Shown here one piece after another: positions 11,619 through 53,605 of a stretch of DNA of 64,000 nt. The position numbers and the translations under genes are program-made. The notes under the pieces are model-generated. The model was not told the DNA's origin. It worked only from the letters and a program-made list of their open reading frames with translations, and did not search any database. Within the stretch, counting starts at the first letter, position 1, and every line of letters begins with the position of its first letter. Source of the DNA: an uncultured Bacteroidota bacterium (GTDB taxonomy: Bacteria > Bacteroidota > Bacteroidia > Bacteroidales > P3); assembly GCA_902791695.1 (NCBI GenBank), contig CADAWR010000004.1, forward strand, positions 38,942 to 102,941. Reading direction: 5' to 3'.

Positions 11619-11746
11619 TTAGTAGATATTTATAACGCCTCAACGACTTTATTATTGTATATACTAATAAAAAATAAAAAATCACGCCACCACCCAAGCA
11701 CAACCGGCGCGCGCCGCCTCCTCCACCCTGCATCGCCGCACCCTCT

Positions 11747-11870
11747 CCGTACCCGCTCCGTCTGTTCACCGGTTGTTCACCGATTGTTTAACGGTTTAAA
11801 CGGTAGAACAGTCGGTAAACAACCGTAGAACAGTCGTAGAAGAGACGGAGGGGATACGGAGATGCTTCGG
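11747..11870. repeat. 11-bp-phased dyad element, copy 1
   Basis: Eleven to twelve consecutive 11-bp units run through this gap. CCG occurs at 11747, 11758, 11769 and 11780, and CGG at 11813, 11846, 11857 and 11868, with weaker matches between. Typical units are CCGTACCCGCT, CCGGTTGTTCA and CCGATTGTTTA; in the right half their reverse complements appear (CGGTAAACAAC, CGGAGGGGATA). The centre is ACGGTTTAAACGG. It lies in the 326-bp gap between the divergent M64 and YrdC genes, about 40 bp upstream of the YrdC -7 box. The rest of the gap (11619-11746 and 11871-11913) is AT-rich or low-complexity, with nothing else recognised. Confidence 0.88.
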
Positions 11871-11913
11871 CGACTATATATATATTTTATGTTACCATTC
11901 CAAAAAATAATCG

Positions 11914-11921
11914 TACTTTTG
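11914..11921 (+). promoter_or_regulatory. -7 promoter box for the YrdC-holin-panC run
   Basis: TACTTTTG fits the Bacteroidota TAnnTTTG box and is followed by GCACG; the start codon is 23 bp downstream. A good -33 TTTG is not visible at the expected distance (TTTTATG lies slightly too far upstream), so this call rests on the -7 box. Confidence 0.6.
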
Positions 11922-25767: not shown

Positions 25768-26934
25768 TTAGGCAAAATAATCAAACACTCCGTTCTCGCT
25801 CATCACCGTCACCTGCGGCTTGGCGCTCTCCTCCACGCGGCCCACCACCTGGGCATCGACGTTGAAACTGCGCGCTATGTCGATGATTCCGCGGGCCGTG
25901 GCCTCGTCGGTGTAGAGCTCCATGCGGTGGCCCATGTTGAACACCTTGTACATCTCCTGCCAGTCGGTATGGCTCTCTTCGTGAATCATCTTGAAGAGCG
26001 GCGGCACGGGGAATAGGTTATCCTTGACAACGTGATACTTGTCGATGAAATGCAGCACCTTGGTCTGGGCGCCGCCCGAGCAGTGTATCATGCCATCGAT
26101 CTTTGGACGGTACTCGTCGAGCACCTTGCGAATGATGGGCGCATAGGTGCGCGTCGGCGAGAGCACCAGATGTCCGGCATCTACTCCCGGCACCTCAGTG
26201 GGGTCGGTGAGGTGCTTCGTGCCGCAGAAGACCACGCCGTCGGGCAGGTTGGTGTCGTAGCACATGGGGTATTTCTTGGCATATTCGTGGGCAAAGACGT
26301 CATGGCGGGCCGACGTGAGGCCGTTGCTGCCCATGCCGCCGTTGTAGGCGGTCTCATAGGTGGCCTGGCCGTAGCTGGCGAGTCCCACAATGACATTGCC
26401 GGCCTTGATGTTGGCATTGTCGACGATGTCGGCGCGGCGCATGCGTGCCGTCACCGTGCTGTCAACGATGATGGTGCGCACAAGGTCGCCCACGTCGGCG
26501 GTCTCGCCGCCGGTGAGCACCATGTCGATGCCCATGTCGCGCATCTGCTGGCAGAACTCCTCGGTGCCGTTGATGACAGCCGCGATAACCTCGCCGGGCA
26601 CCAGGCCCTTGTTGCGCCCGATGGTCGACGAGAGCAGGATATGGTCGAGGGCGCCGACGCACAGCAGGTCGTCGGTGTTCATTACTATGGCGTCCACGGC
26701 AATACCTTTCCACACACTCAGGTCGCCCGTCTCCTTCCAGTACATGTAGGCGAGGCTCGACTTGGTGCCCGCGCCGTCGGCGTGCATAATGTTGCAGTAG
26801 TCCTTGTCGCCGCCCAGCAGGTCGGGTATCACTTTGCAGAAAGCCTTGGGGTAAAGACCTTTGTCAATATTCTTGATGGCGTTGTGCACATCCTCTTTTG
26901 TGGCGGAAACTCCGCGCTGATTATACTTGTCCAT
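25768..26934 (-). CDS. purM: Phosphoribosylformylglycinamidine cyclo-ligase (AIR synthase)
   Basis: About 388 residues from the ATG at 26934, matching the longer Bacteroidota form; a 23-residue upstream extension in the same frame covers the promoter and is rejected. It makes aminoimidazole ribonucleotide in purine synthesis. Motifs are MHADGAGTKSSLAYMYW (substrate/ATP site), AIVMNTDDLLCVGA, MVLTGGETADVGDLV, NVIVGLASYGQATYE, and the C-terminal HCSGGAQTKVLHF and MGHRMELYTDEATARGI. A perfect promoter lies at 26983-26953. It is probably monocistronic, as the next minus-strand gene is the tRNA. Confidence 0.95.
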   Translation of the reverse strand: MDKYNQRGVSATKEDVHNAIKNIDKGLYPKAFCKVIPDLLGGDKDYCNIMHADGAGTKSSLAYMYWKETGDLSVWKGIAVDAIVMNTDDLLCVGALDHILLSSTIGRNKGLVPGEVIAAVINGTEEFCQQMRDMGIDMVLTGGETADVGDLVRTIIVDSTVTARMRRADIVDNANIKAGNVIVGLASYGQATYETAYNGGMGSNGLTSARHDVFAHEYAKKYPMCYDTNLPDGVVFCGTKHLTDPTEVPGVDAGHLVLSPTRTYAPIIRKVLDEYRPKIDGMIHCSGGAQTKVLHFIDKYHVVKDNLFPVPPLFKMIHEESHTDWQEMYKVFNMGHRMELYTDEATARGIIDIARSFNVDAQVVGRVEESAKPQVTVMSENGVFDYFA

Positions 26935-26952: not shown

Positions 26953-26983
26953 CAAAATTACGAACTTTTTACATACTGGCAAA
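26953..26983 (-). promoter_or_regulatory. purM promoter
   Basis: On the minus strand TTTG (26983-26980), 19 bp, TAATTTTG (26960-26953). The -33 box is about 30 bp from the near edge of the phased repeat element at 27013. Confidence 0.88.
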
Positions 26984-27012
26984 ATTTTCTTTTCCACCGC
27001 CACGTACCCCCT

Positions 27013-27125
27013 CCGTACGTTCTCCGACTGTTCACCGGTTGTTCTACGACTGTTCGACGGTTTAAACCGTTAAACAACAGGTGAACAACCGGTGAACAGA
27101 TGGAGCGGGTACAGAGAGGATGCGG
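27013..27125. repeat. 11-bp-phased dyad element, copy 2
   Basis: Exact 11-bp register from 27013 to 27125: CCG at 27013, 27024 and 27035, ACG at 27046 and 27057, CGT at 27068, AGG at 27079, CGG at 27090, TGG at 27101, CAG at 27112 and CGG at 27123. Units such as CCGACTGTTCA and CCGGTTGTTCT in the left half are mirrored by CGTTAAACAAC and CGGTGAACAGA in the right half. The centre ACGGTTTAAACCGT is a perfect palindrome. It fills the space between the purM promoter and the opposing promoter at 27142. Confidence 0.9.
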
Positions 27126-27141
27126 AGGAAATGAAAATAAA

Positions 27142-27173
27142 TTTCGCCGTTTCAAATAATTTTTGTAATTTTG
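27142..27173 (+). promoter_or_regulatory. Promoter of the GT5-DUF4270-MORN-maf run
   Basis: TTTC (27142-27145), 20 bp, TAATTTTG (27166-27173), 28 bp before the start codon. The -33 box has one mismatch to TTTG. Confidence 0.75.
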
Positions 27174-27201: not shown

Positions 27202-28023
27202 ATGGCAAAAGGCAGAATATTGTATGTAAGTCAGGAGATTATGCCGTTTTCGGAGGAGAGTGCCACTGCTGCACTGGGGCGTTACCTGCCCGCAAAAGTG
27301 CAGGAAATGGGGCGCGACATCAGGGTCTTCATGCCGAAATTCAGCAGTATCAACGAGCGTAAGCACCAGCTGCACGAGGTGATACGCCTCAGCGGAATGA
27401 ACCTGATAGTGAACAACTGCGACCACCAGTTGCTGATTAAGGTCGGCTCCATCCCCACGGCTCGCATGCAGGTGTACTTCATCGACAACGAGGAGTACTT
27501 TGTCGGGCACCCGAGCCCCACCGAGGCCGACGGGACGTTGGACGACAAGAGCGACGAGCGCCTGCTCTTCTTCGGCCGCGGCACCCTGGAGGCGGTGCGC
27601 AAGCTGGCGTGGCAGCCCCACCTGGTGAACTTCATGGGCTGGTTCTCCTCCATGATACCGTTCTACCTGCGCCGCATCAACAAGGAGAATTCGTTCTTCA
27701 GCGGAACCAAACTCGTCATCACGCTCATGGACGACGGTTTCAAGGGCCATATAGGCGGCGAGCTGGAGCGCAAGATGAAAACCGACGGCGCCACGGCCAA
27801 GGACCTGCGCCTCTACGGCGACACCACCTACCTGGGCCTCATGAAGTCGGCCATCACCTACTCGCAGGGCGTCATCATCGGCTCGCCGAACGCCAACCCC
27901 GAGCTGGTGGCCTTCGCCAAGGAGAACAAGCGCAATGTACTGGACTACATCGAGGACCGCGACGAGTTCTTTACACGCATCAACAAGTTCTACGACACAA
28001 TAACAGGCAGAATCGACAACTAA
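27202..28023 (+). CDS. Glycogen/starch synthase N-domain-only protein (GT5-like)
   Basis: A 273-residue protein that matches only the N-terminal half of the GT5 glycogen synthases (ILYVSQEIMPFSEES..., YLPAKVQEMGRDIRVFMPKF, VYFIDNEEYF). Full enzymes have about 480-530 residues and the C-terminal donor domain is absent. The ADP-glucose-binding KxGGL motif expected after 'EIxPF' reads SEESATAALG here, so starch synthase activity is doubtful. This short form is known in many Bacteroidota beside DUF4270 genes, as here (22 bp gap), so it is a conserved variant and not a fresh truncation. Its function is unknown. Confidence 0.88.
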   Translation: MAKGRILYVSQEIMPFSEESATAALGRYLPAKVQEMGRDIRVFMPKFSSINERKHQLHEVIRLSGMNLIVNNCDHQLLIKVGSIPTARMQVYFIDNEEYFVGHPSPTEADGTLDDKSDERLLFFGRGTLEAVRKLAWQPHLVNFMGWFSSMIPFYLRRINKENSFFSGTKLVITLMDDGFKGHIGGELERKMKTDGATAKDLRLYGDTTYLGLMKSAITYSQGVIIGSPNANPELVAFAKENKRNVLDYIEDRDEFFTRINKFYDTITGRIDN

Positions 28024-36115: not shown

Positions 36116-37885
36116 TTATTTGTCTTCCTTCAGTTTCTGGAAGATGTCGAGGTCGCCAAGGGTGGTCTTCTCCAGATTGTCGTTGATCTGCTTCACAGTC
36201 TTCTTGGTGTTACGCTCGCGGCTGTCGCCTTCGGCGCGGCTGCTGTCGCTGCCATCCTGGAAGGTGCGGGTGTGGCTGACGATAATCTTCTTGCTGTCCT
36301 TGTTGAACTCGATGACCTTGAAGTCGAGGGTCTCGCCGTTCTTGGCCTTGCTCTTGTCCTCCTTGTCGAGGTGACGCATCGGGGCGAAAGCCTCGACCTC
36401 GTAGGGCAGGATAACGGTGGCGCCCTTGTCGTTCATGTTGACGATCTTGCCCTGGTGCACGCTACCCACGGTGAAGAGGGTCTCGTAGACGTCCCAAGGA
36501 TTCTCCTCGAGCTGCTTGTGACCGAGGCTGAGGCGACGGTTCTCGGCATCGACTTCGAGGACGACAACGTCGATCTTCTCGCCAATCTTGGTGAACTCGG
36601 CGGGGTGTTTGATCTTCTTGCTCCAGCTGAGGTCGCTGATGTGGATGAGGCCGTCGACGCCTTCCTCAAGCTCGACAAAGATGCCGAAGTTGGTGAAGTT
36701 GCGCACGGTGGCGGTATGCTTGCTGCCGACAGGATATTTCTCGGCGATGGCGAGCCAGGGATCCGGCATGAGCTGGCGGATGCCGAGGCTCATCTTGCGG
36801 TTCTCACGGTCGAGGTTAAGGACAACGGCCTCCACCTCGTCGCCGACCTTCAGGAAGTCCTGAGCGCTGCGCAGGTGCTGGCTCCAGCTCATCTCGCTGA
36901 CGTGGATGAGGCCCTCGACACCGGGCATAACCTCGACGAAGGCACCGTAGTCGGCGATGACAACGACTTTACCCTTGATGTGGTCACCCTCCTTGAGGTT
37001 GGGATCGAGAGCATCCCAGGGGTGAGGAGTGAGCTGCTTGAGACCGAGGGCGATGCGGCGCTTGGCCTCGTCGAAGTCGAGAATGACGACGTTGATCTTC
37101 TGGTCGAGCTGGACAATCTCTTCGGGGTGGTTGATGCGGCCCCAGCTGAGGTCGGTGATGTGGATGAGACCATCCACGCCGCCGAGGTCGACGAAGACGC
37201 CATAGCTGGTGATGTTCTTGACGACACCTTCCAGCACCTGACCCTTCTCGAGGTGGCTGATGATTTCGGCCTTCTGAGCCTCGATCTCGTCCTCGATGAG
37301 AGCCTTGTGGCTGACAACGACATTCTTGTATTCGTGGTTAATCTTGACAACCTTGAACTCCATCTGCTTGTCGACGTACACATCGTAGTCGCGGATGGGC
37401 TTGACATCGATCTGGCTGCCGGGCAGGAAGGCCTCGATGTTCTCGAAGACGGTGACGATGAGACCGCCTTTGGTGCGGCTCTTGACGTAACCGGTGATGA
37501 TTTCCTGGCTTTCGTAGGCCTGGTTGACACGCTCCCAGCTCTTCAGGATGCGGGCTTTCTTGTGGCTGAGCATCAGCTGGCCATTGGCATCCTCCTGGCT
37601 CTCGACGTAGACCTCGATCTTGTCGCCGGGCTTCAGGTCGGGATTGTAGCGCACCTCAGCGGTGGGGATGACACCGTCGCTCTTGGCGCCGACGTTCACA
37701 ACGACTTCGCGGTCGTTGATGGAGACGATGGTACCCTCGATGACTTCCTGCTCGGTGAACGAGTTGAAGCTCTGCTCGTAAGCGTCGTTGTTGGCACCAG
37801 CCTCTTGCTGTTTGATTTTACCGGCTTTCTCGTCGACGGCGTTCCAATCGAAATCGGCCAGCGGTTGCACATTCTTGTAGTCCAT
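36116..37885 (-). CDS. rpsA: 30S ribosomal protein S1
   Basis: A 589-residue protein with six S1 (OB-fold) RNA-binding repeats, starting near residues 50, 135, 220, 305, 395 and 480. Clear copies include VKNITSYGVFVDLGGVDGLIHITDLSW, VVIADYGAFVEVMPGVEGLIHVSEMSW and VRNFTNFGIFVELEEGVDGLIHISDLSW. The acidic N-terminal leader of about 45 residues and a charged C-terminal tail fit Bacteroidota S1. It binds mRNA during initiation, important in a group with few Shine-Dalgarno sites. It is monocistronic with its own promoter (38034-38003), a leader of about 110 bases and a strong terminator. The leader carries an AGGAGG stretch 33 bases before the ATG, too far to act as a normal ribosome site. Confidence 0.97.
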   Translation of the reverse strand: MDYKNVQPLADFDWNAVDEKAGKIKQQEAGANNDAYEQSFNSFTEQEVIEGTIVSINDREVVVNVGAKSDGVIPTAEVRYNPDLKPGDKIEVYVESQEDANGQLMLSHKKARILKSWERVNQAYESQEIITGYVKSRTKGGLIVTVFENIEAFLPGSQIDVKPIRDYDVYVDKQMEFKVVKINHEYKNVVVSHKALIEDEIEAQKAEIISHLEKGQVLEGVVKNITSYGVFVDLGGVDGLIHITDLSWGRINHPEEIVQLDQKINVVILDFDEAKRRIALGLKQLTPHPWDALDPNLKEGDHIKGKVVVIADYGAFVEVMPGVEGLIHVSEMSWSQHLRSAQDFLKVGDEVEAVVLNLDRENRKMSLGIRQLMPDPWLAIAEKYPVGSKHTATVRNFTNFGIFVELEEGVDGLIHISDLSWSKKIKHPAEFTKIGEKIDVVVLEVDAENRRLSLGHKQLEENPWDVYETLFTVGSVHQGKIVNMNDKGATVILPYEVEAFAPMRHLDKEDKSKAKNGETLDFKVIEFNKDSKKIIVSHTRTFQDGSDSSRAEGDSRERNTKKTVKQINDNLEKTTLGDLDIFQKLKEDK

Positions 37886-38002
37886 GTGTGTGGATTCTTT
37901 TTGTTTTGTGTGCCTCCTGCCATGGGCACGGGTTTGACTTTTATTCTATAACTCTATGTATTGCACAGCGTTGGCAGGCCACGCGGCGAAACATAGAAGT
38001 TG

Positions 38003-38034
38003 CAAAGATACAACTTTTTTACAATATAGCGAAA
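38003..38034 (-). promoter_or_regulatory. rpsA promoter
   Basis: On the minus strand TTTC (38034-38031), 20 bp, TATCTTTG (38010-38003). It lies 37 bp from the phased repeat element at 38071. In the 37886-38214 gap this promoter, the rpsA leader and the repeat element are the only features recognised. Confidence 0.78.
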
Positions 38035-38070
38035 CTTTTTTCGCCAACGTCTTTTTCCGGCATTGTCTCT

Positions 38071-38173
38071 CCCTACCCGCTCCGTACCCGCTCCGACTCC
38101 CCTCCGACAAAAAACCGTTAAACAACCGGAGAACAGTCGGAGCGGGTACGGAGCGGGTACGGAGAGGATACGG
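38071..38173. repeat. 11-bp-phased dyad element, copy 3
   Basis: CCG begins at 38082, 38093, 38104, 38115 and 38126 and CGG at 38138, 38149, 38160 and 38171: 11-bp spacing in each half. A perfect 25-bp inverted repeat joins 38074-38098 with 38135-38159 (arms begin TACCCGCTCCG), with a 36-bp centre that contains AAAAAACCGTTAAACAACC. Reverse-complemented, it closely matches copy 4. It lies after the HIT gene and upstream of the rpsA promoter. Confidence 0.92.
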
Positions 38174-38185
38174 ACCGGCTGCGTC

Positions 38186-53474: not shown

Positions 53475-53493
53475 CTCACCGTCATCTACCCAT

Positions 53494-53590
53494 CCGCTCC
53501 GTACCCGCTCCGTACCCGCTCCGACTGTTCACCGGTTGTTTAACGGTTTTTTGTCGGAGAGGGGTCGGAGGGGATACGGAGCGGATACAG
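53494..53590. repeat. 11-bp-phased dyad element, copy 4
   Basis: CCG at 53499, 53510, 53521 and 53532, then CGG at 53544, 53555, 53566 and 53577 and CAG at 53588. Units include CCGTACCCGCT, CCGACTGTTCA and CCGGTTGTTTA, with a TTTTTTG centre. In reverse complement it closely matches copy 3. It fills the gap between convergent radC and folB and is the only copy not next to a promoter. No standard terminator is visible in this gap. Confidence 0.9.
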
Positions 53591-53605
53591 TGCGACTACA
53601 GTTCT

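Follow-up and report, generated by a model that had tools for sequence, protein, structure and literature searches.

The gap at positions 27013–27125 of the 64,000-nucleotide stretch analyzed here (the window, C4:38942-102941 of genome G000, a 2.17-Mb, 95% complete assembly in 37 contigs from an uncultured gut Bacteroidales species) is filled by a regular array of 11-bp units, and the question it raises is what kind of element this is. A previous sequence-only reading had described units in strict phase, starting with CCG in the left half and with CGG in the right half, in four gaps of the window, and this arrangement is present in all four. They are also exactly the top self-matches of the window at a lag of 11 bp (0.71, 0.70, 0.67, and 0.59 over 66 bp), with the next lag-11 peak elsewhere at 0.47 and all other lags from 5 to 23 at 0.59 or less. 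The same reading placed the gaps in a single family, yet there are two related types rather than one. Type A, found in the gaps at 11747 and 27013, is near-symmetric with a palindromic centre. Copy 1 (11736–11878, ends approximate, centre at 11797/11798) lies between divergent genes and copy 2 (27002–27133, ends approximate) between a purM-like gene (25768–26934, minus strand, below the NCBIfam cut-off) and a gene resembling the N-terminal part of GlgA (27202–28023, plus strand, below the NCBIfam cut-offs). The arms of type A carry three TGTT units each, nearly symmetric about ACGGTTTAAACCGT, the palindrome already claimed for copy 2 and located at 27057–27070. Type B has an asymmetric centre and a common core, CTCCGACTGTTCACCGGTTGTTTAACGGTTTTTTGTCGGAG, one base off in the gap at 38071. 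It comprises copy 3 (38065–38180, ends approximate, minus strand), upstream of rpsA (30S ribosomal protein S1, 36116–37885, minus strand), and copy 4 (gap at 53494; 53483–53600, ends approximate, plus strand), between convergent radC-family and folB genes.

Across the whole genome, the search suggested by the sequence-only reading gave at least 113 distinct copies (75 of type A and 38 of type B), a lower bound, one of the DNA searches having scored the best 40 of 144 candidates. The pattern CCGNNTGTTNACCGNNTGTT has 118 exact matches in G000 and none when reversed, and the centre pattern has 82 forward matches. Copies were called by matching without gaps in regions surrounding copies already found, the base-by-base reading covering about 0.85 Mb of G000 plus the window; 71 of the 75 type A copies agree with their consensus at 70 or more of 84 positions and the 38 type B copies at 53 or more of 63, while reversed-sequence controls peak at 42 and 34, respectively. 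The left part of type B is strongly conserved (CTCCGTACCCG twice, CTCCGACTGTT, CACCGGTTGTT, TAACGGTTTTT, and TGTCGGAG) and the right part is made up of NNNCGGAGNGG units that vary, where CGG is in place in 36, 36, 33, and 24 of the 38 copies for units one to four. In these right-arm units CGGAG is kept and the neighbouring letters vary, the base after CGGAG carrying 0.1–0.4 bits. Conservation of the element declines outward, unit by unit, and there is no terminus common to the copies. Two type B copies (C5:15369 and C16:17031) extend into long purine-rich 11-bp arrays of GGACGGAGGTG-like units, and the left flank of the first is common to C5:49109.

The position of the copies relative to genes, a check that the sequence-only reading had proposed, favours divergent gaps. 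Once three copies are set aside (two assigned to the inside of an ORF, one to an edge), 69 of 110 sit in divergent gaps, 33 in tandem, and 8 in convergent ones, against 31.5, 65, and 13.5 expected by intergenic length, in a model that scales copy-free gaps from sampled stretches which are themselves centred on copies. By a simple gene caller based on codon scores, type A was divided into 51 divergent, 18 tandem, and 5 convergent copies plus one inside an ORF call, and type B into 18, 15, and 3, plus one inside an ORF call and one at an edge. The motif TAnnTTTG, which we take to be the Bacteroidetes -7 box, appears within 300 bp of 117 of 172 genes with an upstream element and of 61 of 157 genes without one, part of this contrast being a matter of room because gaps without elements are shorter. 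No single theme joins the genes adjoining upstream elements: in a random 30 of the 143 eligible, 26 had Pfam matches, among them thymidylate synthase, phosphofructokinase, DnaB, PriA, an Mfd-like protein, the gyrase/topoisomerase A subunit, RecX, and a pterin-binding enzyme. A protein with Response_reg and PglZ domains (L119:2333-3883), presumably PorX-like, adjoins the type B copy C9:64877, and one LytTR protein is encoded near another type B copy.

The elements of type A are in register with these promoter boxes. In the window, the centre of copy 1 is 116 bp away from a box at 11914–11921 (plus strand). Copy 2 has its centre 103 bp from the box of the purM-like gene (26953–26960, minus strand) and 102 bp from that of the GlgA-like gene (27166–27173, plus strand), and the reference point of copy 3 is 111 bp away from the rpsA box (38003–38010, minus strand). 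Genome-wide, the boxes beside type A copies tend to lie about 102, 114, 125, 136, or 147 bp away from the centre, giving a vector strength R of 0.44 at 11 bp (n = 96, reached in 0 of 20,000 jitters) with a best period of 11.2, and a second measure taken from CGGAG arrays in G000 was likewise equalled in 0 of 20,000 jitters (n = 65). Of the 20 copies flanked by a box on each side, 16 have two distances whose difference is a multiple of 11 to within 2 bp. Start codons show no 11-bp register (n = 97, p = 0.96). With 30–50 bp between array end and box the phase is sharpest (R = 0.85, n = 17); it is lower at 50–75 bp (R = 0.47, p = 0.0014, n = 28) and weak at 75–130 bp (R = 0.32, p = 0.07, n = 26). 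Among the CGG triplets of the decayed stretch that separates array from promoter, 35 are in phase and 3–10 fall in each of the other phases. Promoter contexts do not duplicate one another from copy to copy, only 19 of 4,560 pairs exceeding 60% identity with a maximum of 67%. Several A/T-rich words in the flanks have a weaker phase (TTTT, R = 0.23; AAAA, 0.19; TTTG outside the box, 0.23), perhaps stemming from their closeness to the -7 box. For type B the box phase gave p = 0.018 on the left side (n = 15) and p = 0.77 on the right (n = 19), and small samples from relatives gave p = 0.04 in G096 (n = 10), p = 0.68 in G087 (n = 16), and p = 0.28 in other species (n = 8), with none of the further ones below p = 0.14. 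Phasing is thus established with power for type A in one genome, the samples from relatives being underpowered. Such a register implies either that phase has been selected, or that the arrays once reached a fixed promoter distance and changed by whole units, which would leave them in register without selection on phase; both origins tie the array to the promoter.

A different proposal is that the inverted halves form a hairpin, in RNA or as cruciform DNA, that separates transcription units as a boundary or terminator working in both directions. The inverted folds are strong (z from -7.4 to -10.1) but carry little weight because any inverted repeat gives them. The convergent radC/folB gap, where we found no site resembling an intrinsic terminator, would suit such a role, and there is covariation between the arms for the middle two pairs of units (36 vs 23.1 expected, 1 of 2,000 permutations; 15 vs 7.2, 4 of 2,000). 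However, covariation is missing or reversed at the centre (7 vs 29.3 expected), beside it (14 vs 19.9), and in the outer units (32 vs 32.0 and 25 vs 42.1), the copies prefer divergent gaps over gene ends, and a hairpin does not predict the promoter register. A search of the window with Rfam at gathering score returned tRNA only and no match for the elements. RNA or cruciform function is therefore weakly supported, and we regard the boundary hairpin as unlikely. Static curvature was rejected as the basis of the elements: a wedge model gave no clear excess bend over shuffles or other intergenic DNA, save that type A reached 43 vs 30 degrees for shuffles when the twist was forced to 11 bp (controls 42) and, by a slight margin, 32 vs 29 degrees at 10.5 bp.

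Relatives carry arrays at the same places but with other letters. Of the 190 genomes of the family, 49 contain the pattern CTCCGN6CTCCGN6CNCCG, by our count 46 of these from the 120 of the genus, with six-base fillers typical of each species (the reversed control was found in 14 of the 190, with 1–6 matches each), and the TGTT pattern is present in 8 of the 120 genus genomes, mainly G000 (118), G096 (60), and G087 (42). We examined 20 loci in each of the two near relatives. In G096, gene 5' sides with an element correspond to an element in G000 in 22 of 26 cases, against 1 of 55 sides without; in G087 the figures are 16 of 17 and 1 of 50. On the 3' sides they are 6/6 vs 1/75 (G096) and 9/9 vs 0/58 (G087). 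The type may differ at a matched position: in 10 of 14 matched loci (e.g., L314) G087 has type B where G000 has type A. A more distant set of 20 loci from eight species, picked for their CTCCG arrays, left seven usable species in which the fillers after CTCCG differ from those of G000, and the match was 11/15 vs 0/19 on the 5' side and 1/7 vs 2/27 on the 3' side (with vs without element). It was uneven among species (G034 1/5 upstream; G042 0/3 and G029 0/1 downstream), and the G000 gene set compared came from stretches around copies; part of the 11/15 may be chance reuse of roomy gaps, as by our estimate about half of the divergent gaps of G000 hold an element. The purM loci nearest to that of the window come from roe-deer rumen MAGs of Bacteroidales (91%), followed by two RUG assemblies (90%), where we take RUG to stand for rumen, and red deer (88%); the CTCCG-type pattern, sought in 80 purM loci, was present in none.

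Using rpsA as an anchor, we compared 30 genomes of the same genus and 30 of other genera, counting as strong an array with a lag match of at least 0.68 over 44 bp. Strong 11-bp arrays lie upstream of rpsA in eight of the 30 same-genus genomes (G087, G048, G034, G056, G019, G020, G091, and G029), with units that are unlike between genomes (CTCCGTAGGGG, TTGACCTAGTA, ACCAACTCCTT, GTTGTTCAGTC), and downstream in two (G026 and G069); the remaining 20 loci, at least two of which (G006 and G096) lack the upstream region, have no array at this threshold. Species of the genus without the CTCCG pattern gave eight lag-11 matches in six species (12 stretches, 223,852 bp, nine of them from contigs bearing rpsA), followed by lags of 7 bp (four matches) and 12, 22, and 24 bp (three each). 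Five shuffles scanned at seven lags gave no match. In the other genera of the family, two sets of 143 and 138 kb had no match at lag 11 (one weak match at a lower threshold), 5 and 8 at lag 21, and 5 and 3 at lag 22; four of the lag-21 matches (L402-L405) were judged to be coding repeats. Apparent intergenic 21- or 22-bp arrays, some of them palindromic, were seen in these genera (L370, L372, L373, L376, L391, L392, L401, L404, L405, and L406). Across the wider Bacteroidota (76 loci, 929 kb) lag 11 had five matches and lags 7, 8, 16, 21, and 14 were commoner, so the 11-bp preference is not a trait of the phylum. Arrays of a like kind do exist there (L242:8811 of Chitinophaga pinensis, L204:4499, and L215:12096), those of L204 and L242 folding as long hairpins. 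Within the genus, L358:3225 (G026) is a long tandem array of the GGGAAGTTAAA type with mixed spacing. The rpsA leader itself (37886–38003 in the window, minus strand; L327-L356) has a conserved, structured-looking segment, CCTGCCAAC ... GTTTAACCCG ... GGCAGG, present in most genus loci that show the leader. It is a possible candidate for an autoregulatory leader RNA, and in the window it had no Rfam match at gathering score.

These comparisons bear on the idea of a neutral minisatellite, in which slippage builds 11-bp arrays, template switching makes them palindromic, and intergenic DNA tolerates both. The number of units does vary and two loci run on into long purine-rich arrays, as noted above. 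Nevertheless, a period of 11 dominates across unrelated units of the genus, and positions shared among species and promoter register stand against neutrality, making this explanation very improbable.

More serious is the alternative of a MITE- or REP-like palindromic repeat that moves and spreads in the genome, persisting best in front of promoters because it disrupts nothing there, with species-specific subfamilies that replace each other. It would fit the 113 interspersed copies, the exact 26-mer common to 21 of the 38 type B copies, the species-specific units, and the Y1 (RAYT) transposases (PF01797, found in 73 of 119 genus genomes) of some array-rich relatives (G096, G034, and G020). Yet PF01797 has no match in G000 or in G087, the two genomes with most pattern matches, conservation fades by unit instead of stopping at common ends, and most of the sites tested are shared with near relatives. 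Six discordant pairs among the 40 relative loci contained no clean empty site, and random insertion is not expected to produce a promoter register. The judgement that the elements fit no REP, BIME, MITE, or CRISPR class was borne out in tests of Y1, placement, ends, and repeat layout, and we consider the mobile repeat improbable. From what is accessible of the source, REPs measure 20–40 bp, carry GTAG or CGTC tags, are frequently Y1-linked, and lie mostly in convergent or same-direction gaps (PMC3733652). The elements described here are, like REP/BIME and CGTC repeats, high-copy, intergenic, and palindromic, but they span about 120 bp, are mostly divergent (69/110), and occur in a genome without a Y1 match. 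Fixed ends and terminal inverted repeats, which define MITEs, are absent from them. The BrickBuilt MITE, reported in the accessible part of its description from Porphyromonas gingivalis only, with 19 copies in ATCC 33277, consists of a 23-nt unit AGAYCATARTATCCTCTCRTRTG with leader, tail, and terminal inverted repeats, and has promoter elements inside it (PMC4596501). It shares with our elements tandem units, an intergenic position, a Bacteroidales host, and predicted long stem-loops, and differs in unit length (11 bp here) and, compared by eye, in sequence. Unlike CRISPR, by layout, the units are contiguous, with no spacers. The TAACTGA heptamers, also present in some Bacteroidetes, similarly form many intergenic sets of direct repeats, but according to the accessible text they have a fixed 7-bp unit, in one genome mostly directly upstream of start codons, and no dyad is described, in contrast to 11-bp dyad arrays (PMC4679880). 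Intergenic tandem repeats with units of 6–11 bp in a few archaea and a curvature-related periodicity of 10–11 bp in prokaryotes are mentioned in the part available of another study (PMC4060949). Within the open-licence literature we found no description of arrays like these. A viral origin was rejected, one match to a 15-base pattern in each of 21 viral contigs being taken as chance; copy 4 sought in phages and copy 1 in plasmids had no match.

A close parallel is found among operators. ArcA sites are, in the accessible portion of the paper, direct repeats 11 bp apart centre to centre, mostly three to five and sometimes 22 bp apart, at many operons (PMC3798270), and the units here are likewise direct repeats 11 bp apart, as in ArcA and OmpR-PhoB arrays, although forming dyad arrays of about ten units. 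A single OmpR-type protein (PF00486) was found in G000, with a type B copy in the 5' gap of its gene. We rejected it as the reader of the arrays: the units vary between species while this protein keeps its recognition helix, AARSMDVYI(T/A)KLRKYL(K/R), in all 20 parsed orthologues out of 27, and G056, rich in CTCCG arrays, had no close orthologue among the matches listed. Judging from these protein sequences, this regulator is unlikely to have co-evolved with the units as their reader, and given the divergence of the units between species one conserved reader is hard to imagine.

The sequence-only reading had hesitated between a phased binding array and a long stem. The phased array is favoured by the register of type A with the -7 boxes, the sites upstream of promoters, and the positions shared despite differing units, and the stem is less probable, its arms covarying only in the two middle unit pairs. 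We therefore propose, with a probability of roughly one in two, that the element is a regulatory array of double-stranded DNA that is bound along a single helical face and coupled to promoters, from which we infer a binding protein and an effect on transcription. The eight convergent copies among 110 and the fact that no binding protein was found weaken this reading. As 11 bp is about one helical turn, a protein touching the CCG- or CGG-like bases of each unit would line one face of the DNA, and the dyad would let a single array act in both directions, on a pair of divergent promoters. These being in the same helical register, the bound array might touch RNA polymerase or set the local path of the DNA. 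Sequence exchange among copies would keep the units alike inside a genome. More tentatively, and with less confidence, the array may be a promoter element of the whole genus that works by helical period and dyad and not by sequence, keeping gene positions and register while its units are replaced genome-wide by concerted change, with a reader that is either tolerant of sequence or equally fast-evolving; sister genera may use two-turn (21/22-bp) versions.

Recognition of regulatory DNA normally rests on conserved sequence. In these arrays the sequence of the units is replaced genome-wide from species to species, whereas what looks conserved is position, period, symmetry, and promoter register; if true, this would represent concerted evolution of more than 100 promoter elements in a bacterium. 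A helical lattice upstream of divergent promoters, controlling transcription or insulating neighbours, becomes testable, and its effect would be broad since arrays lie upstream of housekeeping genes such as rpsA, the gyrase/topoisomerase A subunit, and dnaB-, priA-, and mfd-like genes.
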